Below, in pieces: positions 3 to 47,676 of a stretch of 56,000 bases of DNA. The DNA comes from a virus. Under the pieces are notes generated by a model. It ran no database searches, was not told the origin of the DNA, and worked only from the letters and a program-made list of their open reading frames with translations. The position numbers were made by a program, and so were the translations under genes. Every line of letters starts with the position of its first letter. Positions within the stretch are counted from its first letter, which is position 1. The stretch lies in IMG/VR virus record IMGVR_UViG_3300044626_000250, positions 1-56,000 of that record; one strand, 5' to 3'.

Positions 3-3000
3 GAGAACTTGGTTGTTTTAGCAGATATTAAATGGGAAAATTTTGAGTTTTTATCAAAAGAAGATATAGACAAGTTAAATAGTTTAAAACCTTTAGCAGA
101 AGAACTTGATAGTATAAACACTTTAAAAATTTCTTCAAAAGATAGTAGAACTGTAGCTGTAGAAAAAAGATTTGCTCAACTTACTAATGAGCTAACTAAT
201 GAACTTGTTGATATAATTGGGAAATATGTTGAACAACAATTAGGTAAAACTATTAGTAGTTCAAAACCAAGACTAGTTACTTTACAAACTCCTACATCTC
301 CAACCAAACCTTCTAATTTAGATAATGCAGAAGGAAGAAAAGTTTTAGAAGATAATATAAATGCCAAGAGACAAGAAGAATTAGATAGTTTATTTGGAAC
401 ATATACTGGTGATGAATATGCAGCTAAAGAAAAAGAAATTAATGATAAATACGATTCACTTGCAGAAAAATTAAAGGATGTTAAAGTTGCTAAGCCTGGA
501 CAATTTGTATTAGATGGAGAAACTTTAAATATACAAATTGGTAATACAGGGATGATGATTGTGTTTACAGCTGAATCAGGAGTCACTGTAGAAAATACAA
601 ATGATAAAATTAAAATCAAACCTGAGTTTGGTGATGCTGTAAAAGTTGTAGAGTTTGTAAAAGAAAAAGGTAATCTAAGTCAAGAAGATGCAATTGCTAA
701 TATTAAAAAGAGTCTTGCTAATTCTGTTGCAGAATATGAATCAACATCTAAACAATTTGAGCAATATGCTGAGGATGAATTTGAACCTTATGTAGAGCCA
801 GCGTTTGAAGAGCCAATCAATGATGCTATTGATCAAGCAAGTAAGTTAGCTGGTAAGCCTATTAGTGCTTCAGTTAAAGCTGCTATTGCTGCAAAGAGAA
901 CTGGTCGTTCTAAGAAAGCTAGACGTGAAATAATATTACAAGATTTAAAGAACTTCAAAAAAGAAGATTGGTCTAAAATAGAAAGATGGATTAAAGCTGT
1001 CCTTCCTAATATCCCTGTATATAGAGTTAAGAATGTAATCCAAGCTACCAATGGTAAACAATCTTGGGGTATGTTCCATAATGGTGCTGTTTATATATAT
1101 GAGAATGCACAAGTTGGTACAACATACCATGAGGTGTTCCATGCTATATGGAGAATGTTTACAGATGCTAAAGAGCAACAAGCTATATTTGATGAGTTTA
1201 CAAGTAGACCAGGTCAATTCTTTGATAGAACATCAGGTAAACTGGTTGACTATTCTAGAGCAACTCCAGATCAAATGGAGGAAGCTCTTGCTGAAGAGTT
1301 TAAAGATTATGTACATGAAGGAAAGAAACCATATAAACCAAAAGATAGTAGACCTTTTATTCTTAAAATGTTCTCTGATCTTGTAAACTTTATTAAAAAA
1401 TTCTTTTTAGGAGGTAAAGAATCTACATCATTAGTTGAAGAGTTATTTAAAAATATAAATCAAGGATCATACAAAGCTAGCATTCCTTTCTCAAATGAAT
1501 TATCATATGCTAATGTTGGTATTCAAGATATTGAAAACATATCTGGAGATGACAGTAGTGCATTTAGTTTAATAGATATGGGAGATGTTCAGAGAAATGA
1601 GATTCTTCAAGAAATGACATATCAAACATTATTAAACTTTATTGATACAGATGAAGATTTGTTTGACATTCCAAACATTAGTAAGTCTAAGATATATGCA
1701 AATCTTTATGGTCATATACAAGGTTTAATAAAAGAAGGAATTGATGTTGCTAAAGAACTCTTAGAAGATCCTGAATATCAAACTCCTGAATTACAACAGT
1801 CTATTATAAGCAATATAGCCAATACCACTTTGTTAATGCAACAATTTGAAGATGGTTGGGAAAGCATTGTAGACAGACATCAAGAATATCTAAGAGGATA
1901 TTCAATTACATTTGATGAGAATGATGAAATTGCTTTAACAGATGATGAGAAAAGTAAAGAAGATCCTTATGGAGATTCTACTAAAATAGATCATTTCAAA
2001 AAAGCAAATGCTGCAATTAAACTTTTACTTTCTACTATACCTATATTAGATGTAAATAGTGAAGAAGGTGATGTACTAACATCTTCTATAGGAGGTGCAA
2101 TTCTTATGCCTACAAGCCAAGCATATATTAGCGTTATGAATAATGTTCATAATTCTAATAACATAGAAGAGATGTTAGAGAAATTACGTCAAATGGCATT
2201 ATATGATCCAACATATGCTGTGTTATATGATCGTTTAACAAAGTCTTCATATAAACTTTCAGGCTTAGATCTTAGTAAAGTTAAAAGTGTACATGGTGTA
2301 AAACTAATTGATGCATTTTGGAAAACATTCAAGAAACAAAATCCTGCAGTTAAGAATGTATTTATTCTTAATAATGGAGAAATTGTAGTTGGGGATGCTA
2401 ATCTTTCCACTGCAGCAGGTCAATTGAAATCTGAATACATAAGTGCTATTGTTGTTAAAGCTAAAGAAGGAAAAGGATTCTTTACATATAATAAAGATAA
2501 AAAAGTTTATGAAGGTAACTCTGCAAAAATTAAATCATTAAGATTAGATGGTGTAGTGCAAATGGTTTCTTTCTTAAAAGAACTTGGTGTAGATTTTTCA
2601 CAAAGTGATGCATTAAAATTAAAAGATGCAGAATTAAAAATATTCAAAGAAGCTGTTTCTGGTATTAGAAACAGTATATTAAATGCAGAAGATATTGCAA
2701 ATTTCTCTAGTAAGACATTGAACATGGACAAACGTTTATTTCAAATTGGCTTATTAAAAGCTTCTGTAGACAATCCTATGTTTGATAGTACATATTTTAA
2801 TGTAGCTGGAGAACGTACACAATCTTATGTAGGTACTAATGCTGCTAGTAATCTATTCACATTCTTATCTGGATTAGAGAAATTTACAAAAGATTCTCTT
2901 GCTAATACTAATTATTCTTATTTAGGAACTGATTCTTTTGCAGAAAATTCTTCTATACTAAATAGAAAATATACTAAAGAAGGAAATGTTATTGAAGGTT

Positions 3001-6000
3001 CAGAAGATTTATTAACTGTTGGATATGTTGGAGGTACAATTAATGAAACAAATGGTAAAACTAAACCATCTTCCAAACTTAATTATAGAGAACGTCTTAT
3101 GCAAGAAATCAATCTTAATTTAAAAGGTTGGTATTTAAATCTTATTCCTGGAGATGCATCTTTAGAATGGATGATAAAAATGGGTAATCCCATTTCATCA
3201 ATTAGTTTAACTAGAGGATTTGGAGAAGTACATGATTTGTTCAAAGGTTATTTCCTATCTGAATTAAAATTAGCTAGAGAAGGTCGTCCTATAGCAAATG
3301 TAAAAGGAAGAAGCACTAATGATATGAGATTTTTTAAATCTATTCTTGGTGAGGTTCTTCATAATAATATAATCTCATCAACAGAATCAGTTGAAAAAGT
3401 TTATGAAGATAATGCTGATAAAATTAATAAAGCGTTAGATGCATTCATTGAGCAAAAGAAAGAATCATTCAAAAAAACATTAATAGACGTTAATATATTA
3501 AAGCAAAATGGTTATGGATATTCATTAGAGAATATTGATCTTCCTCAAGTGATGATTGAATCTGAACTTAACAGACATTTAAATATGTTAACTGTTAATT
3601 ATTTTGTTAGTCAGATTGAAATGCACAAGCTATTATACTCTGATCCTTATCAATATGCTGATGAATTGAAACGTATTAAAAACTTCAATTCATCTGGACA
3701 AGCTATTATGAATAGTTCACCAAAAATGAACAAGCTTTATAATAATGTTTGGAACAAAGGATTTAAAAAAGGCAGTATTGGTTATACAAATTTCACACAA
3801 GAATATTTTAAAACAGCTACACATGAAGATGTAATAGGTATAGTTGATCTACCTAACTATGAGGAATATAAAGAAACTGATGGTGGTGGAATTATGATAT
3901 TTAATGCCTATCGTAATTATAGAATTAGAGCCAGTGATTGGAACACTGCAGAAGAAGCACAGTATCGTTATGACATTGCTTGGGAGAAAAGAGATAAAAA
4001 GGTAGAATTGTCAAAAGAAGAAGAAGCTTTACTTTTAGCAGGTAATCCTCAAGTGAAGAGTGCATACACTCCTCTTAAACCTATTGTTCGTGGAAACAAA
4101 GCAAATGGTAAAAACTACAATGATGTTGTATTAGATAAGTTTGCACTTTATCCTTTGTCTTACAGATTAATGAAACAAATTAATCCAACATCAAATGCTG
4201 TATCTCTTTATGCAAAAATGCAAAAAGAAAAAATAGATTATATTGTATATAACTCATCAAGAAAAGTGGGTGCTGATCAAGCACATCCAACATATAATGC
4301 AAAAGGAGAATTTAATAATGCCCCTTATGCAAAAAGAACTATTGTAAATGTACCATTTTCTATAATGGATGTACAAACAGAAGTTCCTTCAAAAGACATT
4401 AGTTTAGTTACTAGAGGTTCTCAGGTTACTAAACTTATCACAATGGACTTCATGGATGCTGGTGTACCAGTTGATTTTGTATTACTAGATGCAGAAGGAA
4501 ATGAAAATACTAACTTCTCTGAAAGATATAGAACATGGTTTACAATGCCTGAGGAGCAGAAATTAGAAAATTCTGAATTATATCGTGAGATAAAAACTAA
4601 CCAAGATTTATTAAGTGCGTTAATGAAACAAGGTTATAACAACCTTCTTAGATCATTAGGTATTTCTAGTAAAAATGGTGAGTTTAGAATAACAAATTTT
4701 AGTGAAGCTGCTACAACTTTACGTAATGAAATTCTAAAAAGAGAAGTTAATGATAACATCAGTGATGCATTAAAAGGTTTCTTGAATGGTAAAGCTATTT
4801 TAGAAGCTACCCCTGCTTATCAACAAGTTAGAAACATTCTTTATTCTATTGCTGATAGAGAAATCATTTCTCCTAAGATGAATGGTGGTATGAAGGTGCA
4901 AGTTGCTTCTACATTATTAGAATCTGTTCGTGCACAAGAAACAGAAATCAATGGTAAAAAAGGATTTACATCTGACATTCTTAAGTTTTATGAGAAAGAT
5001 GGAAAACGTGTGTGTGAAGTTATGGTGGGTAGATGGTTTAAGTCTGATCTATCTGATGATGAGTTACTAGATTTATGGTATAAAAAAGATAAAAAAGGAA
5101 ATAGAACAGATGAATTAACAGAAGAAGGAGAAAAAGTTATGTCTGGGCTTGCATTTCGTACGCCTACTCAGAAACAAAATTCTATTGATAGTTTTGTAAT
5201 TAAACAATTTCTTCCTGTTGAATTTGGAGATTCTGTAATTGTACCTTCTGCTATTGTTGCTAAGAGTGGATCTGACTTTGATATTGATAAGTTATCAATG
5301 TATTTTAAAAATTTAAAAGTTGGTAAAGATGGTTTGCCAAGATATGTTGAATATCTAAATGATAGTAATTCTACAGTAGAAGAAAGATTTTTAAAATATG
5401 TTTCTAAAAATACCAAAGACTATAAAGATATAGTAAAAGAGTTTAAAAATTCTGAAGAGTTTATTGCAAAAGGTAAAAAGATTAATGAAAGTTTTGGAAA
5501 AGTTGACGAGCAAAGAGCTGCTTTAAAAGACATCAAGCAAGAAGTTGATAGTGTATATTCAATGGGCTATGAGTCATTTAAACAACTTCCATTAGCTATT
5601 AAACAAATATTTTGGAAACAAGAAGAAGATTTAACTGCACAAGATGTAGATGGTATACAAAAAAATATTTACTATTCTGCTATTGCTAATAATCTAATTA
5701 CAAATCTTAAGAAAAATAAAACTATTCAACTTGAACAAACTGTCAAACTTAAAGATGGAAAAACAAAAGTTGAAACTGTAACTATACCAAAAGAAGAAGC
5801 TCTTCCTTATTTACAAGAAATGGTGGCTAACTATAAAGAAATGAACATTCTTTATGGTTTGTCAGAAGAACAACAAACTAAACTTGAAGACATTTTAAGT
5901 AATGCTTTATCTATTAAAGATCTATTAAATAATAAATATAAACTTGAAGTTGCAAAAGTTATTGCAGAAGCTACAGATTTAGATAGTTTAGAGACATTCA

Positions 6001-8549
6001 GTAATAGAAACATGAATGATCAAAACACTCAAGAAGCTTTAGAGAATGCATATAATGAATCATCTCAAAGACTTGTTTCTCATCCTAAAAACTATGACAG
6101 ACTTATTCAACCTAACTCTGCAGAACAATTAAAAGTATTATCAAAGTTCATAGCTGAAAAAACTGTTGGTCAATCATTTGATTATACAGATGTTGGTAAT
6201 ATGTTAGATAGAACATTTATGTCTAGACTTAGACATGCATTTGTTTCAGGTAAATATGCTATTGGTATTGCTGCTGTGAACCAAACTAATCATTCATTAA
6301 ATCAACGTCAAGCTATATTTATTGATAGAGACAGACTTAAATATGTATCTGAGGAAGATAAGTTTTGGTTAGGAGATGCAACAGTTAAGTTTCCTGAATA
6401 TAATAAATTAGGAATTGGTAATTATATTTCTCCTATTTTATCCATGGTTAAGAATGTTGCTGGTCAAGATATATCAGATATCCTTGGACAGTTCATAGAT
6501 GGGTTTGTGGATATTTCTAAAGGTCCTTGGATTATGGAACTTGGTCTTACACCTAATGTAGCATCAACTTGGATGACATTAGTTAAGATGGGAGTACCAG
6601 TTGATACAGTGGCTTATTTTATGAACCAACCTATCATCAAAGATTATTTAAATACTATCGAGAATTCTGGATATTCATATCTATTTATAGATAGTATCAT
6701 GGATGATGTTTTGGAAAAATATACTCCTAAAGGACAAAAGATATCTCAAAAAGATTTTGAAGCTTTAAGAAACAATTTTGAAATTCCTAGTAAAGATAAT
6801 TTGAAAAATCTTGTTGGTGCTTCATCTAAAAATTTAGATGCATTTCAATTAAGACAACAACAATTAATGTTGTGGGAATTTGTTAAATATGCAAAAATGG
6901 CTGAACATATGTTCTTAGTAACACAAGGTTCTAACTTTGATACAGCTAACTTCAATGATCCTTATTTAGTATTTAAGAAAATGATGATGCTTAAAAAAGC
7001 ACAGTCAACTATTATTGGATCTGTAGATAAAGATGGTAAACCAACTTCAGCTGTAAATGCTTTATTAGAGAATTCTTTCTTAGGTGATCTTGGGTCAACT
7101 ATTTTAAATATGAGAAATGCTCTTTCTAAAATATTAATGTCTGATCAACCAGAGATTAGAAATGTTATTGAGAAAGTCCTAACGCCATACATTGATGAAT
7201 CTGATAGAGACTTTGTAAAGATTGCTCAAAAAGCAGTGAATGATCTTTTTGATTATGCTGTTTTCACTGATCAAGGATATGCAGACTTATTGAAATCTGA
7301 ATTAATTAAAGATGGTGGTACAGCTAAACAGATATATAATTTTGTTAAAGATGTTAAAGAAGATGAAGATCATCCTTTACATAACAACCATGTCATTAAT
7401 ATATTAGAATACAAGCCATCTACTAAAGAGGGTAACTATCCTAACAATTTAAAAATCAAAGGACTTGATAATAAAGTGTTTGATCAAAACACTATCATTG
7501 GTGCATTCAGAGAAATAAAAAGATATATCGAAACTGAGAAAGCTATTGGTAATACAAAATACGAATCTATATATAAAGGATTAGTAAATGTTGCTGTATT
7601 ACAGTCAGGGTTGTCTAGTTCTCCTATATCATTTACATCACTACTTCCTTATGAAGATTTTGCTGATGTATATAATCCAACACTTTCCAAGTTGGCAAGT
7701 ATTAAAAACTTAGATGATTTCTATAAGCTTGGTGTGTTCCAAAGAAACAATTGGAATAATGATACGTTTGTTCCTTCAACAAGAGCAAGATGGATTAAAG
7801 TGGATGATCCATACGATTTTGGAAATAGAGTTTCTATATACAATCCATCTATGTACTTCCTTCCTGAAGCTGTTAAAGATGCTGTTTCTAATGGAGAAAT
7901 CCCTGAAATCTTAACACAGTCTGCAAATAATTCAGATTCAAAATTTGATTATATTACATTTAATTGGGAACTTCAACAAGAGATTTTAACAAAAGAAGAA
8001 TTAGAAAAAATTAAACCTTCTGAAAGTGTATTAGATGCTGTATTTGCTAAGAAAAATGAAATGCGTAGAAAAGGAGATTACTCATATATGCAAAAAGGAT
8101 TGTTTCAAAAAGTGTATGACAGTTATGGCGTACCATTAACAACAGAAGATGCAAAAGGTAATACATATTATATATACAAAGCTATCAATGCATGGGGTGA
8201 TTCATATAGAGCTAATGAGTTTTATAATGTAGACAAACCATCTGTGTTTGATAATGGAATGGTTACTGGTGTAGCTGCAAGTAATGGTTTAATAATTGAC
8301 ATATTCAAAGGAACAAGACCAATTGTAGGAGCTGTTACAGCCAACACTGCACCATCTGCAAAAAGAAATGTTACTATAAAAGGTATCTTTAATGGATTAA
8401 ATGAGTTTACGTTAGAACAAAAATCACAAATTTTATCTAACTTTGCTATCAAGCATGGTCTTACTTCAGAACAAGCATTAAAAGATATTAATGCAGCACT
8501 TAAAACCAATCGAGCTGAAGCAATTGAGCAATTAAAAAAATGTTACTAA
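3..8549 (+). CDS. Giant crAss-like phage virion RNA polymerase with N-terminal zincin-like domain (5' partial)
   Basis: The frame is open to the left edge, so the true start is outside the window; residues are numbered from the TTG at position 9. Residues 1756-1760 read DFDID followed by Lys, inside the context SGSDFDIDK. This matches the metal-binding loop of the YonO/phi14:2 gp66 type of single-chain RNA polymerase (double-psi beta-barrel fold, distantly like cellular beta'). The preceding RTPTQKQNS and FLPVEFGDSVIVP stretches fit the same barrel region. Residues 374-378 read HEVFH, a zincin metallopeptidase motif, with a Glu-rich EEALAEEF segment about 45 residues later that could give the third ligand. 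In phi14:2 the homologue is packaged in the virion and transcribes early genes; that role is inferred here. At more than 2,840 residues it is longer than the phi14:2 protein, which fits a fusion of peptidase, polymerase and other virion-cargo segments. The next gene begins 1 nt after the stop, so the two are co-transcribed. Confidence 0.88.
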   Translation, partial: ENLVVLADIKWENFEFLSKEDIDKLNSLKPLAEELDSINTLKISSKDSRTVAVEKRFAQLTNELTNELVDIIGKYVEQQLGKTISSSKPRLVTLQTPTSPTKPSNLDNAEGRKVLEDNINAKRQEELDSLFGTYTGDEYAAKEKEINDKYDSLAEKLKDVKVAKPGQFVLDGETLNIQIGNTGMMIVFTAESGVTVENTNDKIKIKPEFGDAVKVVEFVKEKGNLSQEDAIANIKKSLANSVAEYESTSKQFEQYAEDEFEPYVEPAFEEPINDAIDQASKLAGKPISASVKAAIAAKRTGRSKKARREIILQDLKNFKKEDWSKIERWIKAVLPNIPVYRVKNVIQATNGKQSWGMFHNGAVYIYENAQVGTTYHEVFHAIWRMFTDAKEQQAIFDEFTSRPGQFFDRTSGKLVDYSRATPDQMEEALAEEFKDYVHEGKKPYKPKDSRPFILKMFSDLVNFIKKFFLGGKESTSLVEELFKNINQGSYKASIPFSNELSYANVGIQDIENISGDDSSAFSLIDMGDVQRNEILQEMTYQTLLNFIDTDEDLFDIPNISKSKIYANLYGHIQGLIKEGIDVAKELLEDPEYQTPELQQSIISNIANTTLLMQQFEDGWESIVDRHQEYLRGYSITFDENDEIALTDDEKSKEDPYGDSTKIDHFKKANAAIKLLLSTIPILDVNSEEGDVLTSSIGGAILMPTSQAYISVMNNVHNSNNIEEMLEKLRQMALYDPTYAVLYDRLTKSSYKLSGLDLSKVKSVHGVKLIDAFWKTFKKQNPAVKNVFILNNGEIVVGDANLSTAAGQLKSEYISAIVVKAKEGKGFFTYNKDKKVYEGNSAKIKSLRLDGVVQMVSFLKELGVDFSQSDALKLKDAELKIFKEAVSGIRNSILNAEDIANFSSKTLNMDKRLFQIGLLKASVDNPMFDSTYFNVAGERTQSYVGTNAASNLFTFLSGLEKFTKDSLANTNYSYLGTDSFAENSSILNRKYTKEGNVIEGSEDLLTVGYVGGTINETNGKTKPSSKLNYRERLMQEINLNLKGWYLNLIPGDASLEWMIKMGNPISSISLTRGFGEVHDLFKGYFLSELKLAREGRPIANVKGRSTNDMRFFKSILGEVLHNNIISSTESVEKVYEDNADKINKALDAFIEQKKESFKKTLIDVNILKQNGYGYSLENIDLPQVMIESELNRHLNMLTVNYFVSQIEMHKLLYSDPYQYADELKRIKNFNSSGQAIMNSSPKMNKLYNNVWNKGFKKGSIGYTNFTQEYFKTATHEDVIGIVDLPNYEEYKETDGGGIMIFNAYRNYRIRASDWNTAEEAQYRYDIAWEKRDKKVELSKEEEALLLAGNPQVKSAYTPLKPIVRGNKANGKNYNDVVLDKFALYPLSYRLMKQINPTSNAVSLYAKMQKEKIDYIVYNSSRKVGADQAHPTYNAKGEFNNAPYAKRTIVNVPFSIMDVQTEVPSKDISLVTRGSQVTKLITMDFMDAGVPVDFVLLDAEGNENTNFSERYRTWFTMPEEQKLENSELYREIKTNQDLLSALMKQGYNNLLRSLGISSKNGEFRITNFSEAATTLRNEILKREVNDNISDALKGFLNGKAILEATPAYQQVRNILYSIADREIISPKMNGGMKVQVASTLLESVRAQETEINGKKGFTSDILKFYEKDGKRVCEVMVGRWFKSDLSDDELLDLWYKKDKKGNRTDELTEEGEKVMSGLAFRTPTQKQNSIDSFVIKQFLPVEFGDSVIVPSAIVAKSGSDFDIDKLSMYFKNLKVGKDGLPRYVEYLNDSNSTVEERFLKYVSKNTKDYKDIVKEFKNSEEFIAKGKKINESFGKVDEQRAALKDIKQEVDSVYSMGYESFKQLPLAIKQIFWKQEEDLTAQDVDGIQKNIYYSAIANNLITNLKKNKTIQLEQTVKLKDGKTKVETVTIPKEEALPYLQEMVANYKEMNILYGLSEEQQTKLEDILSNALSIKDLLNNKYKLEVAKVIAEATDLDSLETFSNRNMNDQNTQEALENAYNESSQRLVSHPKNYDRLIQPNSAEQLKVLSKFIAEKTVGQSFDYTDVGNMLDRTFMSRLRHAFVSGKYAIGIAAVNQTNHSLNQRQAIFIDRDRLKYVSEEDKFWLGDATVKFPEYNKLGIGNYISPILSMVKNVAGQDISDILGQFIDGFVDISKGPWIMELGLTPNVASTWMTLVKMGVPVDTVAYFMNQPIIKDYLNTIENSGYSYLFIDSIMDDVLEKYTPKGQKISQKDFEALRNNFEIPSKDNLKNLVGASSKNLDAFQLRQQQLMLWEFVKYAKMAEHMFLVTQGSNFDTANFNDPYLVFKKMMMLKKAQSTIIGSVDKDGKPTSAVNALLENSFLGDLGSTILNMRNALSKILMSDQPEIRNVIEKVLTPYIDESDRDFVKIAQKAVNDLFDYAVFTDQGYADLLKSELIKDGGTAKQIYNFVKDVKEDEDHPLHNNHVINILEYKPSTKEGNYPNNLKIKGLDNKVFDQNTIIGAFREIKRYIETEKAIGNTKYESIYKGLVNVAVLQSGLSSSPISFTSLLPYEDFADVYNPTLSKLASIKNLDDFYKLGVFQRNNWNNDTFVPSTRARWIKVDDPYDFGNRVSIYNPSMYFLPEAVKDAVSNGEIPEILTQSANNSDSKFDYITFNWELQQEILTKEELEKIKPSESVLDAVFAKKNEMRRKGDYSYMQKGLFQKVYDSYGVPLTTEDAKGNTYYIYKAINAWGDSYRANEFYNVDKPSVFDNGMVTGVAASNGLIIDIFKGTRPIVGAVTANTAPSAKRNVTIKGIFNGLNEFTLEQKSQILSNFAIKHGLTSEQALKDINAALKTNRAEAIEQLKKCY

Positions 8550-21859: not shown

Positions 21860-22876
21860 ATGAAAGAATTGAAATTTATCCAGGCTTGTCCTAGTGACAT
21901 TTATTACACATGGCAAGTAAATTTATGGATGGAGAGTCTTAAAGAAATAGGACACTCTGACAAAGCAATCAATCTAATCTTTACACCTAAAGGAAGAGAG
22001 AATAGAGATAAGTGGAAACAGATAGAAGATCTATATCCAGAAGCAGAGTTTCATTATTATGAAGATGAGGATAATTTGAATAGATTAATTAGTATATACA
22101 TTCCTGTATTAAGACCATATGTTTTATGGAGACATTTTAAATTACATCCAGAACTAAGTGATTGTGCTATATTCTATTGTGATTCAGACATTCTTTTCAT
22201 GAAAGATTTCAATGTGGATCAGTTTTTGGAAGATGATGTAAACTACTTATCAGATACAAACAGTTATATCAATGCTAAGTATTTTGATAGTAAGATCAAT
22301 CAAGTGCTACCAGAGAAACTGGAAGAGTATAAAACTAGAGATGTTCTTGCTGAAATAGCAAGTGTTGTTGGAATAAGCAGAGAAATAGCTGAAGCTAATA
22401 ATGATCATTCAGGAGGAGCTCAATATCTATTAAAGAATGTAGATAGTGACTTCTGGAGTAAGGTGATGAATGATTGTATTCTTATAAGAACCTATTTACA
22501 ACAAGTGAATAGAGAATTCTTTAAAGATGAGAACAGTGGATTCCAAAGTTGGTGTGCAGATATGTGGGCTGTTCTTTGGAACATCTGGTTAAGAAATCAA
22601 GAAACTAAAGTGGTGAAAGAACTAGCATTTGCTTGGGCAACAGATCCACTTATTAAATTAGATACGCACACCATCTTTCATAATGCAGGCATAGTGTCTG
22701 AAACAGGAAATGGTTATCCAGCTTTTTATAAAGGTAAATATCACATGGGAACAGATCCAACAAAAGATCCTAACCTAGATATGATTCTTGAGAATGAACA
22801 ATCAAAAAAATATTGCACGTGGTTCTATGCAAGTAAACTAAATGAACTAAAACAAAAATATAAACTTAATTATTAA
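21860..22876 (+). CDS. Putative glycosyltransferase (GT-A-like, DSD motif)
   Basis: A 338-residue soluble protein. It starts MKELKFIQACPSDIYYTWQV and has an IFYCDSDILFMKDF segment (D108, D110), the DxD metal/nucleotide-sugar site of GT-A-fold glycosyltransferases. Later landmarks are DHSGGAQYL, SWCADMWAVLW and a HTIFHNAG segment, all compatible with a sugar-transfer active site. It lies between Thr-rich mucin-like modular genes on the same strand, so glycosylation of these virion proteins is a natural hypothesis; modification of a host surface glycan or of another virion protein is equally possible. The start is the first ATG after the previous stop (25 nt). The enzyme class is moderately certain and the substrate unknown. 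Confidence 0.7.
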   Translation: MKELKFIQACPSDIYYTWQVNLWMESLKEIGHSDKAINLIFTPKGRENRDKWKQIEDLYPEAEFHYYEDEDNLNRLISIYIPVLRPYVLWRHFKLHPELSDCAIFYCDSDILFMKDFNVDQFLEDDVNYLSDTNSYINAKYFDSKINQVLPEKLEEYKTRDVLAEIASVVGISREIAEANNDHSGGAQYLLKNVDSDFWSKVMNDCILIRTYLQQVNREFFKDENSGFQSWCADMWAVLWNIWLRNQETKVVKELAFAWATDPLIKLDTHTIFHNAGIVSETGNGYPAFYKGKYHMGTDPTKDPNLDMILENEQSKKYCTWFYASKLNELKQKYKLNY

Positions 22877-39981: not shown

Positions 39982-41544
39982 TTAGTCAATTGTAACAATA
40001 CGATTGCTAATTTCAGATTTCATTTCTTCTAATGAACCAACAATCTTTCTCAATTCTTCAGAAGATAATGTTGGAAGATTAAATTCATGTTTACTAGCTT
40101 CTACAGTGAAACCTTCTTTAGCTTTTTCTGTTAGAGATTCCAATTCGCGAATTGCGTATTGCTCATCTAGCTGTAAGAAATCAAAGCTTCTGTCATTCAT
40201 AATCTGATCTGCTTCTTCAACAGTAGTTAGCATGAATGGAAGATATTCCCAACATCTACCTTTCTCTGTACCAATACCTACCACCTTCATAGGATTATGA
40301 AGAGTCATAACAGTGGTATCACCACAAAGAACATAAGGAGCTGTATAACCTGCAAAGTGTAATCCTGCTGTAGCACAATCTTGTGTAGACCAGTTACAAT
40401 CTTCTTTAGGCATGTTCACCACTTGACCAATTCTGATGTCAAATGTTTTAGTCCAGTTGTCAGTGAATCTATTCTCTTCTCTATTAGGAAGATCTAGATA
40501 AAGCTCTGTTAAGCTACCTATTCTTTGACCATGATCTACAGGCCATTCTTCAGTGTTAGTATATTCTTCTACTTCTCCTGTACCATCACATGTTTCACAA
40601 TCTATCCAACCTTCTGATTCATCATCATAATCAAAACAATCATTATCCCATCCACCTTCACCTAAACAATCAGGACATGTAGTTGTTGTATGAGTTTCTG
40701 TTCTAGTTAGTTTATCAGCATGTACAAGTTTGTATTCTCCATCTTCTAAGAAGATTGTATAATCATCTGGATTCTTCTTCCATACAGCTTTCACCTTGTT
40801 ATAAGCATTGCTCACAAAATATACAAGCTCTGGAGAACCATGTAATGTTACAACGTTACGAAGAGCTACAAAGAATCCTTGTTTAGTGATTTTGAAACTG
40901 TTCTCACTTAAGAATCTATACAATTCATTAGCAACCTCAGCTCTAGGATTCAAACAACACCACATAAAGAATCTCTTAAGAGATATATACTCTTCATCTT
41001 CATTCAATGTTTCTTCAAATGATTTATGATCTGCAGGTAAACTTCCAATTCTATCTACCACCTCAATAAACTTCTCAACAAGTAATTGAGGCATGCTTCT
41101 AGATGTTCCTGCTAGATATACAGAACTTCCTTTTACATCAAAATCAGGAAGATCTGCAAGTAGTTTAATTCCTTTCTTCAAGGCTTGCATCTTTTTCACA
41201 TCAGCTTCGTGTGCTATTCTTTCTTCAGACACTTTAGCTGTTGATATAACAGTGAGCATGTCATCAAATGATTTAGCATTAAGTATTGCATAATAGTCTT
41301 CTTCTGTAGCTTCTGACTTACTCAATACATTACCATTACTTGTAACAACAGTGAGAGTGTCATTTACCAATCTAAGTTTTTTGTACAGAGGCTTTCCTGA
41401 TCTATCTTCAGTGTTAAAATCTTCTCCATCATACTCATCATCTTGGTATTTAATTAAACTTTCTAGCTTACTAGCTACTACTTTCTCAATTGCTCTTTCT
41501 GCAGAGTTTTTGAACCATTCTAAGGACATAAATTTGTTTTTCAT
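39982..41544 (-). CDS. rIIB: rIIB-like protein with inserted zinc motif
   Basis: A 520-residue protein. Features that recall T4 RIIB-like proteins are: KRFFMWCCLNPRAEVANELYR then FLSENSFKITKQGFFVALRN; HGSPELV; and, in the C-half, a Cys-containing CATAGLHFAGYTAPYVLCGD stretch followed by NPMKVVGIGTEKGRCWEYLP. An insertion at about residues 286-325 carries CPDC (C290, C293) and CETCDGTGE (C316, C319), the DnaJ-type CxxCxGxG zinc pattern. The neighbour 41619 is rIIA-like, as in T4, where the pair affects lysis inhibition and exclusion by prophages. That function is only inferred here. The gene has its own terminator and leader upstream. Confidence 0.7.
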   Translation of the reverse strand: MKNKFMSLEWFKNSAERAIEKVVASKLESLIKYQDDEYDGEDFNTEDRSGKPLYKKLRLVNDTLTVVTSNGNVLSKSEATEEDYYAILNAKSFDDMLTVISTAKVSEERIAHEADVKKMQALKKGIKLLADLPDFDVKGSSVYLAGTSRSMPQLLVEKFIEVVDRIGSLPADHKSFEETLNEDEEYISLKRFFMWCCLNPRAEVANELYRFLSENSFKITKQGFFVALRNVVTLHGSPELVYFVSNAYNKVKAVWKKNPDDYTIFLEDGEYKLVHADKLTRTETHTTTTCPDCLGEGGWDNDCFDYDDESEGWIDCETCDGTGEVEEYTNTEEWPVDHGQRIGSLTELYLDLPNREENRFTDNWTKTFDIRIGQVVNMPKEDCNWSTQDCATAGLHFAGYTAPYVLCGDTTVMTLHNPMKVVGIGTEKGRCWEYLPFMLTTVEEADQIMNDRSFDFLQLDEQYAIRELESLTEKAKEGFTVEASKHEFNLPTLSSEELRKIVGSLEEMKSEISNRIVTID

Positions 41545-41579
41545 TTTTCTATTTATTTAATTGTTAATATGTTAAGTTA

Positions 41580-41611
41580 CAAAAAAACAGGGAGACTACC
41601 AAATCTCCCTG
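41580..41611 (-). terminator. Intrinsic terminator after rIIA-like gene
   Basis: Arms CAGGGAGA/TCTCCCTG (8 bp) with an 8-base loop, followed on the minus strand by TTTTTTTG. It separates the rIIA-like and rIIB-like genes. The T-run merges with TTTGTAACTTAA, similar to the -7 regions elsewhere, so promoter overlap is possible. Confidence 0.82.
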
Positions 41612-41618
41612 TGTTAAA

Positions 41619-43931
41619 TTAATTTGCCAATTCATCGATTAGCTCTTCTGTTATAGGAGATGCAATCTCCTCATCAAGTTTTAAGTTATATCTATTAAGA
41701 TCTACTTTGAATTTGTAATATTTCATAAGATCTACAATAGAATTAATAACTTCAGTGTTACTAGCATAACCTCCTGTATAAGCCATTAAGGCATTTAAGA
41801 AAGGAAGCTTTTCAAATACATCTTTCATTTCATTATATAAATGATAGATTTCGTGATCAAATAAGTTGTGCTCTTCAGCAACAGTCAACATTGCTGCAAA
41901 CACGTCAGGACTAGAATGTGTATAATGTTTGTATTGATATTTATACAATGCATCTAGTTTATCATGCAAACTCGTACAAACACCATTTAGTTTATTCATA
42001 TTGTTGAAAGTGTTTTTGTATTTGTTTATAAGATTGTAAATCAAATGAGCTGTAACTATTCTCTTAAATGTTTTAGTTTTTCCTTCCATAAATTTGTCAT
42101 AAGTAATTAAATTGTGAATCTCTAAGTCTTTTAGTATGTTCATCTCTCTAGATGAGAAAGTCATGATCTTGAATTTTTGTTTTGCCATGATTTCATACAA
42201 TGGATCTAGTTTTAGATAGTCATCGTGATGAGCATATACAATCAGGTTTGGTTCTCTAGGAACTTCATTCAATTTCTTAGTGACAGGAACAAATTTACAT
42301 TTTCTACCATCGTTGTATCTCTCTAGATCTACACCTATCTTACCTACAATTTCTCCTTGTAATTTAATAATACGTTTACCATTATCATCTACTCTTGAAG
42401 TTGACATTCCTTTAGTTCTTACAGTCTTACGAGCATCAAGCCAAGATTTAGGAATAACAATTTCATCAAGGTTCTTCATTTTACTAATGAACATCTGTTG
42501 AATAGATTGAAACTCTTGTATTCTTTGTCTCCACTGAGTCTTTGGATGTAAACCAAGTTGAAGAATTTCAAAATACGTATTCATTCCTGTAGAAGATCTG
42601 TCTCCTAGTTGGTACGTTTCTTTCTTCTTAACAAAACTATATGTAGGACTTCCCCAAGATTTTGTATTAAGAGTTTCTCTCATATATATACGCTTGTTTG
42701 TTCCAAGAACTCCTGTATACAAATAACATTTTTCATCAGCATTAGAAGTTGTAACCTTTCTATTCCAATAGTTCTTAGCTTCTTTCATCTTATCTCTTTC
42801 TAGAAAATACATAACTTCGTATTCTCCAAAAATATAATCTCTATGTTTATGTAAAAGCTTTAGGTCAAGAAGTTCAATTCCATCAACCTTTGGCTCTTTA
42901 ATTTTCAACACAGAGAATTTCAAAAGATTCTCTATTTCCCAGTCACCATTGCCAATAATCTTAACTGTTTTAGTATAATTAGAATAATAATCAAATACAG
43001 TTTTGATATCTACAGAACTTGTGATTGAATCATTGTATTTTTCAATCATATAATCTGCAAGCTTTGCTATTTTATCAAGAATGATTTGTTTTGATTCTTG
43101 TGTATAACGTAAAGACTCTCTGTTAGGAGTTGGAAACAATCCATCAGTTAAAGAAAACTTAAGACCAATAGGAATGTTTATTCTATCTATACCAAGTTTA
43201 ATGAAATCTATAGGATAGTAGACATTATCTAGACAGATGTGTAATTGTGTTTCTTTAGATAGTTCTGAAAATTGGAATATATCATTTCTATGAATTAGGA
43301 AATCATTATTGATTCCATCTACATTGAAATAAACATTCTCAAAATAAGCAAGCTGCTCATTTATCTTATTTATAAAATCACTTCTATCCTGCCATTTAAC
43401 AGGAACAATAACTTTAACACCATTGTTCTCTGTTGTTGATTGTTCATATAATAGATCAATTGTATTTACATCTTCTCCTTCATACATCATATACTTACGC
43501 TCAACACCATTCTTTCTACATACAAAATAGAAACTAGAAGTGTAGGCAAGAGGGGCCTTGAAACCAAGACCCATCATACCTAATTCTGTGTTACTATCTC
43601 TCTTAGTAGACTTACCATATTTACTGATGATGTTCTTTACATCTTCAGCATCTAGACCAATACCAAAATCTTCAACAGAAAACTCATAGTTATCACTATC
43701 GTTTCTACTAAATGATACTACTATGGGTTTATCCACTCCAACTCTTCTATGACTATCTAGAGCATTACTTGCGCATTCTCTAATAGTTGAGCCTATTGAA
43801 TCTGAATATAGATTCTTACTTAACATCTGCATCAATATTTGTGCAGAATCTAAGTCTAGTGACATTCCAATTGAATCTTGTGATTCTCCTTGTTGTAATA
43901 CGTGTGCTTCTTTTTGTTTTTCTAAAATCAT
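41619..43931 (-). CDS. rIIA: rIIA-like GHKL ATPase
   Basis: A 770-residue protein with a GHKL (Hsp90/MutL-type) ATP-binding domain: the N-box E-C-A-S-N-A-L-D (E52, N56, D59), the G1 box EDFGIG (D88, G90, G92), and GMMGLGFKAPLAY (118-130). In phage this combination marks T4 rIIA-like proteins. The remainder has no recognisable motif. T4 RIIA is membrane-associated and affects lysis and exclusion; there are no transmembrane segments in this copy. It is followed by the rIIB-like gene. Confidence 0.85.
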   Translation of the reverse strand: MILEKQKEAHVLQQGESQDSIGMSLDLDSAQILMQMLSKNLYSDSIGSTIRECASNALDSHRRVGVDKPIVVSFSRNDSDNYEFSVEDFGIGLDAEDVKNIISKYGKSTKRDSNTELGMMGLGFKAPLAYTSSFYFVCRKNGVERKYMMYEGEDVNTIDLLYEQSTTENNGVKVIVPVKWQDRSDFINKINEQLAYFENVYFNVDGINNDFLIHRNDIFQFSELSKETQLHICLDNVYYPIDFIKLGIDRINIPIGLKFSLTDGLFPTPNRESLRYTQESKQIILDKIAKLADYMIEKYNDSITSSVDIKTVFDYYSNYTKTVKIIGNGDWEIENLLKFSVLKIKEPKVDGIELLDLKLLHKHRDYIFGEYEVMYFLERDKMKEAKNYWNRKVTTSNADEKCYLYTGVLGTNKRIYMRETLNTKSWGSPTYSFVKKKETYQLGDRSSTGMNTYFEILQLGLHPKTQWRQRIQEFQSIQQMFISKMKNLDEIVIPKSWLDARKTVRTKGMSTSRVDDNGKRIIKLQGEIVGKIGVDLERYNDGRKCKFVPVTKKLNEVPREPNLIVYAHHDDYLKLDPLYEIMAKQKFKIMTFSSREMNILKDLEIHNLITYDKFMEGKTKTFKRIVTAHLIYNLINKYKNTFNNMNKLNGVCTSLHDKLDALYKYQYKHYTHSSPDVFAAMLTVAEEHNLFDHEIYHLYNEMKDVFEKLPFLNALMAYTGGYASNTEVINSIVDLMKYYKFKVDLNRYNLKLDEEIASPITEELIDELAN

Positions 43932-44203: not shown

Positions 44204-44482
44204 TTAATTGTTATTTTCTCTTTTTACTAAAAATATATCTCTACCTCCTAAGTATTGATACATTGCATCATTGTGTTTTGTAACATCTTGTTCAAAAATT
44301 CTACTTTTCCATGTCCAAGTACCATTACCTCTTATGTCTCTTCTAAGACTCACTTTAAATGTTGCTCCATCTTTTTTAGAAGGGAGTCTTAACACTTTTA
44401 AGTATTTTAAATCACTATTTGCTGAGATGATTATTTCATCTCCAACTTCTACTTCACTAACTCGTATTAATCTATTTTCCAT
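44204..44482 (-). CDS. MENR-family small protein, paralogue 1 (92 aa)
   Basis: A 92-residue protein. It starts MENRLIRVSEVEVGDEIIIS, continues KYLKVLRLPSKKD and ends FLVKRENNN. It shares its start (MENR, VGDEI), KYLKVL and the LVKRE ending with the next upstream gene, so the two are tandem paralogues. The predicted fold is a small beta barrel. No function is known. The two genes overlap by one base. Confidence 0.55.
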   Translation of the reverse strand: MENRLIRVSEVEVGDEIIISANSDLKYLKVLRLPSKKDGATFKVSLRRDIRGNGTWTWKSRIFEQDVTKHNDAMYQYLGGRDIFLVKRENNN

Positions 44483-44823
44483 TATATTTCTCTTTTAACT
44501 AACCATAATTTTTTAAAATTCAAATCAAATCTCTCAACAGGACTATTTTCTTCAGGAGCTTTAATGTTATATTCCTTAACATCATATGTATATGGAACAA
44601 TACCTTTTACCTTATGGTCATATTTAGTTCCTTGTTTAGAGGTGACATCTACATTCACTTTACATCTTACAGATACATATCTATCTACTCCTGTTCTCCA
44701 TGTCCATCCCACTTTACTCTTTCTAGGAGTTTCTAACACCTTTAAGTATTTACCTTGTTGTGTTAATGTTAGAATTTCATCTCCTGGTTGTAATTCTTCA
44801 ATTGTAATTTCTCTATTTTCCAT
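44482..44823 (-). CDS. MENR-family small protein, paralogue 2 (113 aa)
   Basis: A 113-residue protein (MENREITIEELQPGDEILTL, then GKYLKVLETPRKSK, WTWRTGVDRYVSVRCKVNVD, ending LWLVKREI). It is a paralogue of the 44204 gene, with about 20 extra residues in the middle. The pair looks like a duplication that has diverged. Confidence 0.55.
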   Translation of the reverse strand: MENREITIEELQPGDEILTLTQQGKYLKVLETPRKSKVGWTWRTGVDRYVSVRCKVNVDVTSKQGTKYDHKVKGIVPYTYDVKEYNIKAPEENSPVERFDLNFKKLWLVKREI

Positions 44824-44835
44824 TGTTTTTAATTG

Positions 44836-45552
44836 TTAAAAGGGCATACCATCTAGCCACGCAATTGTTTCATTGTGGTTTTCCCATATTATTTTATTTA
44901 CTTTTCCAAATGTTCCTTCTGTATCCCAATCCATTCCTCTATAACTTGCAGAAGCTGGATGACTGACAATAAATTGCCATGTAAAAGGAGCACAATACTT
45001 CTTATACTTAGCTGCTTCTTTACCAAAATAAACTGTTGGAACATTTGTTTCATTAATTACATTTTCATATAAATATTTAATGAATGGTTCCCAGACATCT
45101 AAATGACTGCCTGCTTTGTTTATTTCTGTTGTAAGAGCTGCATTAAGCATAAGCACTCCTTGATTAGCTAGATATTGCACATCTGGATTTCTCCACCAAT
45201 CAAGGTTTAACCCATTAAACAATTCTGTTTCTATTCCATAATAGAATTGATCTAATGTTGGTTGTAGTTTTCCTGTTATAGAACAGCCCATTAATAGGCC
45301 ATCAGCTACAGGACTTCCATTGTAGGTAGTGTGATAGGGACATAATCCCATAAGAACAACTTTAAGTTCATCTAGAGGAGTTTCTTTGAAACATCTCCAA
45401 ACAAGTGAAGAAAGAGGGGCAATAGTTTTACCCCTCTTACTGTCAAACTTTAAGCGTTCATATATTTTATCACAATCTTCACTTTCTATGAATGGCCTGA
45501 GTTTCTCATGCCAGCTTTCATGAATCTTGTCTTCAAAACTAGTCCACTTCAT
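44836..45552 (-). CDS. ung: Uracil-DNA-glycosylase-fold protein with altered motif A (GLCPYH)
   Basis: A 238-residue protein of the family 1 UDG fold. Motif A, normally GQDPYH, reads GLCPYH (residues 69-74), so the catalytic Asp is replaced by Cys71 and the adjacent Gln by Leu. Other landmarks are intact: GSPVADGLLMGCS, VLMLNAALTTE with GSH, and motif B as SHPASASYRG (H198). The coding bases (ATGGGATTATGTCCCTATCAC on the minus strand) are unambiguous. In family 1 enzymes loss of this Asp reduces activity strongly, so this copy may be inactive, slow, or use another mechanism, or serve as a DNA-binding or decoy protein. It overlaps the next gene upstream by 14 bases. Confidence 0.8.
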   Translation of the reverse strand: MKWTSFEDKIHESWHEKLRPFIESEDCDKIYERLKFDSKRGKTIAPLSSLVWRCFKETPLDELKVVLMGLCPYHTTYNGSPVADGLLMGCSITGKLQPTLDQFYYGIETELFNGLNLDWWRNPDVQYLANQGVLMLNAALTTEINKAGSHLDVWEPFIKYLYENVINETNVPTVYFGKEAAKYKKYCAPFTWQFIVSHPASASYRGMDWDTEGTFGKVNKIIWENHNETIAWLDGMPF

Positions 45553-45718
45553 CTTCTATTAATTGTCTAATTGATTCTTTACATAATTCTATTTCGTGAT
45601 CAGGTGATCCTCCTTCTTCTATTTCATCATGACATAAAGAAACATAGTCCCATATTTCACTAAACTTATCTGGGTGAGAATTCTTGAATCCTCTAGCCCA
45701 TTGTACTAACTCTTCCAT
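45539..45718 (-). CDS. Small acidic hypothetical protein (59 aa)
   Basis: A 59-residue acidic, helical frame (MEELVQWARGFKNSHPDKFS, then EIWDYVSLCHDEIEEGGSPD). Its ATG overlaps the DUF932-like stop (TAATG), and its own TAG lies inside the UDG-like gene, so it is translationally coupled to both. An acidic small protein next to a UDG-fold protein recalls known UDG inhibitors such as PBS2 Ugi in size and charge, but no sequence similarity is claimed. Confidence 0.5.
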   Translation of the reverse strand: MEELVQWARGFKNSHPDKFSEIWDYVSLCHDEIEEGGSPDHEIELCKESIRQLIEDEVD

Positions 45719-46494
45719 TATACAGGGAATAATTCTAATTGATTAGCAACAGGAAGAGGAAGAATCATTTCTTGTTTCTTACTAACAATGCCAGAAGCTT
45801 GAACAAAGAAACTATGAGCATCTATATGATTATTCATCCATAAGCTTGGGTGAACTTCTTTCATACTAAATGTTGTAAACTGGTAAAGCTCCCATAAACT
45901 ATTAGCTGCACCATAATCATGTGTTGGTTTTTCTAATTCTCTTTTGATTATGTTCATCTGTGTAGATTCAATGAATTGTTCTTCAATAATCATACGACCA
46001 ATTAGTTCAGCTTGAGCTCTTCTATCTAATTCAATAGTTTTCATAACTTCTCTTTCAGCTTGCATATTTTGAAAAGCTTCTCCTGCTCTTTTTATATACT
46101 CTGTAATAGCTTGTGGTGTAAATGTTTGGATTTCTCCTTGGTGTTTCTTTTTGAAAGCACCATAATCACCTGACACACATCCATTCTCACATATAAATAT
46201 CTTAGTTCCAATAGCAAACTTTAATGATAAGCTCTTATCATATGAATTCTGCCAACCAATTTGCAATTGCATTTCTGAATCAGCTACATTTCTAATAGCA
46301 AATTTACCATTAGCAACATTACCATTTCTTGCAGATGAATACAGTTCTGTTTGTAATTCAAAACCTGCTTGATGAATACTCTCTAGTGTAAGATCCATCA
46401 GTTGTGCATGACTCACTGGTTTGTAAGTTCGTGTTTGTTCAGGAAGTTCTGCAGCTAGCAACATTCCTTTTGTTGTTCCATAAGTTGTTTCCAT
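45718..46494 (-). CDS. DUF932-like protein with C-terminal QLELF
   Basis: A 258-residue protein. The sequence from SHAQLMDLTLESIHQAGFEL to NGKFAIRNVADSEMQLQIGW and the later ENGCVSGDYG segment resemble the DUF932/phage-plasmid-like family. The extreme C-terminus, VANQLELFPV, contains QLELF, a match to the bacterial sliding-clamp-binding peptide QL(S/D)LF. This suggests an association with the replication fork. The DNA polymerase ends with the related QLNLF. Family membership is from pattern recognition and the clamp interaction is inferred. Confidence 0.6.
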   Translation of the reverse strand: METTYGTTKGMLLAAELPEQTRTYKPVSHAQLMDLTLESIHQAGFELQTELYSSARNGNVANGKFAIRNVADSEMQLQIGWQNSYDKSLSLKFAIGTKIFICENGCVSGDYGAFKKKHQGEIQTFTPQAITEYIKRAGEAFQNMQAEREVMKTIELDRRAQAELIGRMIIEEQFIESTQMNIIKRELEKPTHDYGAANSLWELYQFTTFSMKEVHPSLWMNNHIDAHSFFVQASGIVSKKQEMILPLPVANQLELFPV

Positions 46495-46498
46495 TGTT

Positions 46499-46678
46499 TT
46501 ATTGTTTTAAATCCATTTTTCTATTAAAAAATCTACTAAGAATGCCTTCAAGGTTTTCTATACTAATACATTCAGCTTCATCATTGTATGTAGTTAATAA
46601 CCATTCAACATTTTCTTTAATCTGTTCTTCAAGAAGATCTAATTTTTCTTCTTCTTCTAAATCATTGTAATCTCTCAT
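46499..46678 (-). CDS. Small acidic helical protein (59 aa)
   Basis: A 59-residue frame (MRDYNDLEEEEKLDLLEEQI, then KENVEWLLTTYNDEAECISI), strongly acidic at the N-terminus and helical. Its ATG overlaps the primase stop in ATGA form; its stop lies 4 bases before the DUF932-like start. Function is unknown. Confidence 0.5.
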   Translation of the reverse strand: MRDYNDLEEEEKLDLLEEQIKENVEWLLTTYNDEAECISIENLEGILSRFFNRKMDLKQ

Positions 46679-47676
46679 AATAATTTTTTCTTTTTTAATA
46701 CTTGTTCTAGTTTATTCATTCCATAATCTTTTGCAAGGTCTGCAAAGTCTTTAATACCATCTGATAGATAGGTCCTAGGTACATTTATATATTCAAAACC
46801 AAATAGTTTTGTTATCTCCTGAGAGTTCTTTACACCTGTGGGATCAGAATCAAATGCTAATATTTGTCTTGGAGAATGTGCTTTAAATAGTTCTACATTT
46901 TCCTGAGAGAAGCATGATATTCCTTCATTCTGTACTGCTGTGCAGTTTGGATATAGTTTCTTCATCACCATGTAATCCTTTTTACTTTTATTAATGATTA
47001 GTGGTGTGTCTGAAGGACTAATGTTTCCATCTATAGCTGTAATAGGAACATTATTAGGAACCCATTTCCATTTAGCTTCGACAAATGGTCTATATATCTT
47101 CCAATGGCCATCATATAGATAACCAAATCTAAGATCAGAATCTTTAAGAGAAAACTTCTGTTTGTTTAGATAAACTTCTTTAATAGCATATACATTGTTA
47201 TCTTTTAGATCTTGTATGTCCTGATGATATAGATTCCAATATGCTAGTTCATCATTGTTAAACTTTCTGGTTACCACTTGTATTAATGAATATCTCTTAC
47301 CAATCTCTTCAGGTTGTTTGTATGACTGTGTAATCACCTTGTAATCACCAACCACTCCTGTGGATATACCAAGACCAAAATCTCTATCAATCATCTTTAG
47401 GACATCAGGAAAACTTGATACGTTATATAGCATCTGTACAAAATTGAAGCAGTTACCTCTTTTGTTTGCATCAGCAAAATCTATAAAACTCACATTACCA
47501 TGTTTTGTACCTATAATAAAAGAAGGATTGTCATCTTTTCTAAAAGGACTATTAGTAGCTACATTCAACTTCCAATTCTTATTACCCATATAAAACCTAA
47601 ATATATCATATTCTGATATCTTACTAAGAATAGATTCTGTACTTAATTTTTCTTTTCTTTTTCCTTGTATAGCCAT
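46675..47676 (-). CDS. dnaG: DnaG-like primase with TOPRIM domain, lacking zinc-finger cysteines
   Basis: A 333-residue protein. N-terminal landmarks SPFRKDDNPSF and GNVSFIDFADANKRGNCFNF correspond to the zinc-binding domain of DnaG-like primases but lack its CxxH and CxxC ligands (only C76 is present). The TOPRIM part has PLIINKSKKDYMVMKKL (residues 226-241), IQNEGISCFS-like residues, and ILAFDSDPTG (D276, D278, G281). It would synthesise RNA primers with the neighbouring helicase. It follows the SSB-like gene and a terminator. Confidence 0.82.
   Translation of the reverse strand: MAIQGKRKEKLSTESILSKISEYDIFRFYMGNKNWKLNVATNSPFRKDDNPSFIIGTKHGNVSFIDFADANKRGNCFNFVQMLYNVSSFPDVLKMIDRDFGLGISTGVVGDYKVITQSYKQPEEIGKRYSLIQVVTRKFNNDELAYWNLYHQDIQDLKDNNVYAIKEVYLNKQKFSLKDSDLRFGYLYDGHWKIYRPFVEAKWKWVPNNVPITAIDGNISPSDTPLIINKSKKDYMVMKKLYPNCTAVQNEGISCFSQENVELFKAHSPRQILAFDSDPTGVKNSQEITKLFGFEYINVPRTYLSDGIKDFADLAKDYGMNKLEQVLKKKKLL

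Follow-up and report, generated by a model that had tools for sequence, protein, structure and literature searches.

Family-1 uracil-DNA glycosylases (UDGs) are treated as defined by the motif GQDPYH, the Asp of which is held to be near-indispensable; exchanging this Asp for Asn impairs Ung strongly. The stretch of viral DNA analysed here (the window, 56,000 nucleotides) carries on its minus strand, at 44836-45552, a gene for a UDG-fold protein of 238 amino acids having Cys71 at the position of this catalytic Asp, as established from the open reading frame (ORF), homology, AlphaFold and Foldseek. The window was assigned to a crAss-like phage because the matches of its giant ORF (9-8549) are to crAss-like phages, the phi14:2 RNA polymerase subunit among them. 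The locus raises a concrete question: by what route a glycosylase loses its catalytic acid, moves it and perhaps gains it back. An earlier note on this DNA had taken the retained fold and the replaced base to suggest a non-catalytic binder, a decoy, an inhibitor or a changed chemistry.

Motifs, fold and family-1 ancestry

The residues of the window protein were related to E. coli Ung by alignment and by the E. coli numbering; on this basis Cys71 is taken to correspond to Asp64, His74 to His67, residue 84 to position 73, Met88 to Phe77, Cys90 to Val79, Asn137 to Asn123, His198 to His187 and Ala202 to Leu191. All the features of the protein lie on the minus strand. The motif A stretch of the ORF is VVLMGLCPYHTT, with C71 facing E. 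coli D64 and L70 facing Q63; motif A itself (residues 69-74, 45331-45348) reads GLCPYH in place of GQDPYH, and the relatives show G[MLFYT][CAS]PYH. The uracil-reading segment reads VLMLNAALTTE, and the uracil-recognition segment GVLMLNAALTTE covers residues 132-143 (45124-45159), with Asn137 invariant. Motif B (SHPASASYR, residues 197-205, 44938-44964) retains the invariant catalytic His198, and its intercalating Leu is replaced by Ala202. These readings of motif A, the uracil segment and the motif B His agree with the earlier note. The alignment revealed further changes which that note had not mentioned: Met88 for Phe77, Ala202 for L191, Cys90 for V79, a 4-residue insertion following motif A, and an unvarying acid at residue 84. 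In the window protein this acid is Asp (45301-45303), and the position is acidic in 156/156 unique Asp-less proteins; Cys90 (45283-45285) never varies in the Asp-less clade and is shared by almost all of its Asp-bearing sisters.

Homology to family-1 UDGs is well beyond chance and extends over the whole length, with PDB Ung matches at E values of about 1e-11 in a single-sequence search and 1e-68 in a profile search. The AlphaFold model built on a 15-sequence alignment gave a pLDDT of 80, and that built on a 62-sequence alignment gave a pLDDT of 95 and a pTM of 0.92, with a predicted hairpin at 76-77/80-81. The Foldseek PDB matches of the model were Ung without exception (TM up to 0.82), which bears out the UDG fold claimed earlier. 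The protein shares with Ung (TIGR00628) the fold, the whole-length alignment, the single-domain size, the motif A Tyr, the PYH His, the Asn of the LLN motif and the motif B His; the uracil-reading Asn137 and the C5-blocking Tyr73 are both invariant. It differs in motif A (G[LM][CA]PYH, with 0 Asp in 103 close relatives), in motif B (HPASAS for HPSPLS, retaining His and Pro with the wedge Leu changed to Ala), in Met for Phe77 and in the 4-residue insertion. Its scores also lie under the curated cut-offs, being 21.8 bits against 24.3 for Pfam UDG PF03167 and 78 bits against 185.75 for NCBIfam TIGR00628. The protein is family 1 by ancestry and fold, and strict family-1 membership fails on motif A.

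Families 4 and 5 (UdgA with GE[AG]PG, UdgB with GLAPA) likewise have a small residue at the Asp position and are active (PMC5387724, PMC10359453); unlike the window protein they are [4Fe-4S] enzymes with other motifs, in which the water is positioned by the motif 3 Asn. No specific sequence relationship of the window protein to these families was seen. The family 5 motifs GLAPA and HPSPLN were absent from the ORF, the similarity being confined to the first half of motif A, and neither the GEQPG motif nor the KRRIH R-loop of UdgX was found in it. With regard to [4Fe-4S] cysteines, conservation extends to C27, C54, C71 and C90, two of which (C54 and C71) can be replaced by Ala.

Conservation of the Asp loss and genomic context

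The Asp was missing in 35/35 of the first IMG/VR relatives (49-94% identical). Among the 103 family members first collected, residue 71 was Cys in 101 and Ala in 2 with Asp in none, and the Cys71 codon varied synonymously (TGT 80, TGC 21). Because some later sequence sets had been fished with a Cys-containing pattern, an unbiased sample of 25 long contigs was obtained through the neighbouring primase gene. Exactly one copy of the UDG-like gene was present in 25/25 of these genomes, with Cys at residue 71 in 18, Ala in 5, Ser in 1 and Asp in 1. A second UDG, sought in 20 long genomes, was not found, and one scan with clade-specific patterns found no clade members in bacterial genome contigs. 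The Asp-less UDG-like gene is a conserved single-copy gene of a large crAss-like phage group, and a sequencing error or isolated mutation was rejected on the conservation in relatives and in the primase-chosen genomes. The earlier note had held that GQDPYH in related phages would reduce the change to such an event. This objection applies in part: Asp was found as GQDPYP in the gut crAss-like Steigviridae and as FQDPYF in a nested lineage, while the 35 close relatives were Asp-less. Cysteine as such is not the point, because Ala or Ser replaces Cys71 in several lineages; the same observation speaks against Cys71 acting as a nucleophile, a metal ligand or one half of a disulfide.

The UDG gene is flanked by a primase and a DUF932 protein on one side and by RIIA/RIIB-like genes on the other. 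Comparison of neighbourhoods showed the DNA primase (phrog_12622; 46675-47676, minus strand) to be the most regular upstream neighbour and the RIIA-like GHKL ATPase (41619-43931, minus strand) to be a regular downstream neighbour; the DUF932 protein (45718-46494) is the usual immediate upstream neighbour in the relatives. The RIIA-like ATPase and a RIIB-like protein together occupy 39982-43931, directly downstream of the UDG region, and cr116_1, a crAss-like phage of the gut, likewise has next to its UDG a gene labelled 'protector from prophage-induced early lysis'. Two adjacent small ORFs of the window (44482-44823 and 44204-44482), both starting MENR.I, look like mutual duplicates, and many relatives carry homologues of both immediately downstream of the UDG. 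In the structural region a 338-aa protein (21860-22876) matched, at about 30% identity, hypothetical proteins of phages whose hosts are mostly Gram-positive (Lactobacillus, Enterococcus and Staphylococcus) and, at 34%, one of a Chryseobacterium phage, which is unexpected in a crAss-like phage.

The acidic 59-aa ORF (45539-45718, minus strand) overlaps the UDG start at 45539-45552, as reported earlier. It was found at 16/103 loci in variable positions; the special link with the UDG that had been proposed is not supported, and the ORF was rejected as a conserved partner.

A dUTPase was encoded in 21/25 primase-chosen genomes; an earlier, smaller set gave 3/11 clade genomes, the records of which may be fragments. 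Thymidylate synthases were rare (Thy1 in 2/14 and ThyA in 0/14 genomes) and uninformative. The frequency of dUTPase (21/25) disfavours a U-DNA phage with an inactivated UDG.

Residues 71, 74 and 84 in the sister clades

The acids at residues 71 and 84 were compared over 301 unique UDGs. An acid at 84 alone was present in 156, at 71 alone in 103 and at both positions in 42, and no protein had neither. A strict one-for-one swap, as counted earlier (97 against 103 sequences), was dropped on account of the 42 proteins carrying both acids, and the pattern is now stated as 'never neither'. Because the sequences are related, it stands for two or three events in evolution and not for that many independent observations. 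A pattern scan for Asp71 together with acid 84, which demanded PYH, returned no UDG among 86 matches. His74 was invariant in 156/156 unique Asp-less proteins; in the Asp-bearing phage relatives the equivalent position is mostly Pro (P 54, F 5, H 4, R 1). A literature search on the equivalent of residue 84 (His73) found nothing.

Bacterial Ungs have GQDPYH with His, Asn or Met at the position of residue 84. The gut Steigviridae UDGs (crAss001 gp74 for example) are family-1-type phage enzymes about 30-33% identical to the window protein, but they have the Asp in GQDPYP, Thr at 84 and Phe at 88. An Asp-bearing IMG/VR sister clade (L514-L535 and most of L551-L615) stands closer, sharing acid 84, Cys90 and the SHPASA motif B with the window protein; unlike it, these sisters keep GQDPYP and Phe88 and mostly have no loop insertion. 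Since GQDPYP occurs there together with ADG, acid 84 is older than the Asp loss, the order being acid 84 first and loss of the Asp second. Within the loop-insertion clade, Asp-bearing lineages were also present: L548 has MYDPYP with D84, L538-L540 have FQDPYF with D84, and L511/L513 have FQDPYF with Thr or Asn at residue 84, so that there the Asp is present without acid 84. When the motif columns were left out of the trees, the L538/L511 lineage nested in the Asp-less clade, and a single Asp-less clade was not rejected (AU p 0.16 and 0.45); it is therefore possible that the Asp was regained in this lineage.

Selection on the Asp-less clade was no weaker than on the Asp-bearing sisters, the median dN/dS being 0.12 and 0.16, respectively. 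The pocket residues Tyr73, His74, Asn137 and His198 are invariant in the Asp-less clade, and 26 positions are fully invariant over 154 near-full-length unique proteins, some of which share no more than about 41% of their residues with the window protein. In this large natural clade, represented here by 156 unique Asp-less proteins, the Asp is gone and the remaining pocket is under strong selection, and the Asp-bearing sisters and the nested Asp-bearing lineage allow direct comparison.

Proposed mechanism and rival readings

The reading favoured here, with a probability of about 0.5, is that of a remodelled family-1-derived phage UDG most likely still excising uracil or a close deaminated pyrimidine without the motif-A Asp. 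Uracil, or a closely related deaminated pyrimidine, would be flipped out and excised from phage DNA; Tyr73, Asn137 and His198, which are kept, would hold the uracil and stabilise the uracilate as it departs, as they do in Ung. The catalytic water would be held by the invariant His74, and the negative charge once given by Asp71 would now come from the invariant acid 84 in the hairpin after motif A. The hairpin predicted at 76-77/80-81 would turn the chain so that residue 84 comes near residues 73 and 74. The loss of Asp71 would have been tolerable because acid 84 already existed in Asp-bearing ancestors. Co-occurrence suggests that the enzyme acts beside the phage dUTPase, keeping uracil out of phage DNA. 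That the motif-A Asp was in effect relocated, residue 84 (thirteen residues on) pairing with the DPYH-loop His and activating the water in a natural and reversible move, is proposed tentatively.

The placing of the water on His74 and of the charge on acid 84 was suggested by precedents in human UNG H148, in families 4/5 and in the acid-His dyad of UdgX. The DPYH loop of human UNG holds the catalytic water between its residues D145 and H148 (PMC5156901), and computational work, as cited in that paper, indicates that H148 can activate the water while D145 stabilises the transition state. Families 4 and 5 are active without the motif-A Asp, and in family 4 stabilisation of the leaving group by the motif-2 His contributes more than positioning of the water (PMC5387724). 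UdgX activates its nucleophile through an acid-His dyad (PMC10359453). The residue identities, their invariance, the fold and the absence of relaxed selection favour a remodelled enzyme. Against it stand the strong effect of the Asp-to-Asn exchange in Ung, the other Ung features that were lost too (Phe77 to Met, Leu191 to Ala, Gln63 to Leu/Met) and the inactivity of the vaccinia UNG double mutant D68N/H181L (PMC2630940). Acid 84 may also have another role, because the Asp-bearing sisters carry it as well.

The strongest rival is a non-catalytic replication factor binding uracil- or AP-DNA, that is, a replisome scanner, tether or processivity factor. Vaccinia D4 offers the model, being a viral UDG which adjoins replication functions and is needed in replication independently of its catalytic site (PMC2630940). 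The joint loss of the Asp, Phe77 and Leu191 equivalents and the universal single copy beside a DNA primase would fit such a protein. But a pure scaffold would not need strictly conserved His198, water-binding His74 and acid 84, the QD doublet is back or retained inside the clade (L511, L538), and D4 itself, unlike the window protein, keeps the catalytic Asp, is active and has the partner A20; this rival is judged somewhat unlikely. A changed substrate or chemistry is distinctly improbable. The protein would then be a glycosylase that removes hypoxanthine, xanthine or a modified pyrimidine used by rival phages, or it would trap the abasic sugar on Cys71 as a suicide enzyme. In its first half, G[LM][CA]P, motif A does resemble GLAPA of family 5, the substrate range of which is broader (PMC5387724, PMC10359453); Brig1 and Brig3 of the UDG superfamily excise phage-modified bases (PMC13160076), and UdgX cross-links through its His (PMC10359453). 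Yet neither Tyr73, which keeps out pyrimidines substituted at C5, nor the uracil-reading Asn137 varies, the R-loop of UdgX is absent, and the Ala and Ser at residue 71 in several lineages speak against an obligatory nucleophile or metal ligand there.

The chance of a decoy or inhibitor is very small. It would act on a host or rival-phage Ung or on inhibitors of Ung, for example by sequestering a Ugi-like protein, perhaps together with the 59-aa ORF; the fold would offer an Ung-like DNA-binding face and the acidic ORF overlaps the gene in the window, but that ORF is inconstant in relatives and a decoy would have no need of invariant His198, Asn137 and His74. Most genomes also encode dUTPase, so U-rich DNA needing inhibition of Ung is unlikely. 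A degenerating UDG heading for loss is scarcely credible: three classic catalytic or DNA-wedge residues are gone, but the gene is kept in 25/25 genomes, with dN/dS at about 0.12 and 26 fully invariant positions.

Of the earlier interpretation, the retained fold with a replaced base, and perhaps an altered chemistry, stands, and the replacement has become fixed across a large clade of phages. The step from a missing Asp to a probably non-catalytic protein or decoy is weak, because active families 4 and 5 lack the Asp too; it is further countered by the invariant pocket, the unrelaxed selection, acid 84 whenever the Asp is missing and the common dUTPase. The interpretation moves from a dead or decoy protein to a remodelled active site with a putatively relocated acid. 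If true, this would be a catalytic-residue move inside the most conserved UDG family. The case bears on uracil management in the DNA of crAss-like phages, many of which encode both dUTPase and UDG, and cautions that Asp-less genes should not be annotated as ordinary Ung.

Changes at these motifs were also observed in other phages. Cellulophaga phage phi14:2 g042 (L039, 3944-4654), annotated as UDG, has GKEPYR as motif A and EDP for HPS in motif B, so that the catalytic His is replaced by Asp; it is another candidate for an altered or dead phage UDG. In the closely related Flavobacterium phages Fpv1 and FPSV-S29 (L109, L110) motif A is GQDPYP and GEEPYP, respectively, and the QD doublet appears to be changing there too.
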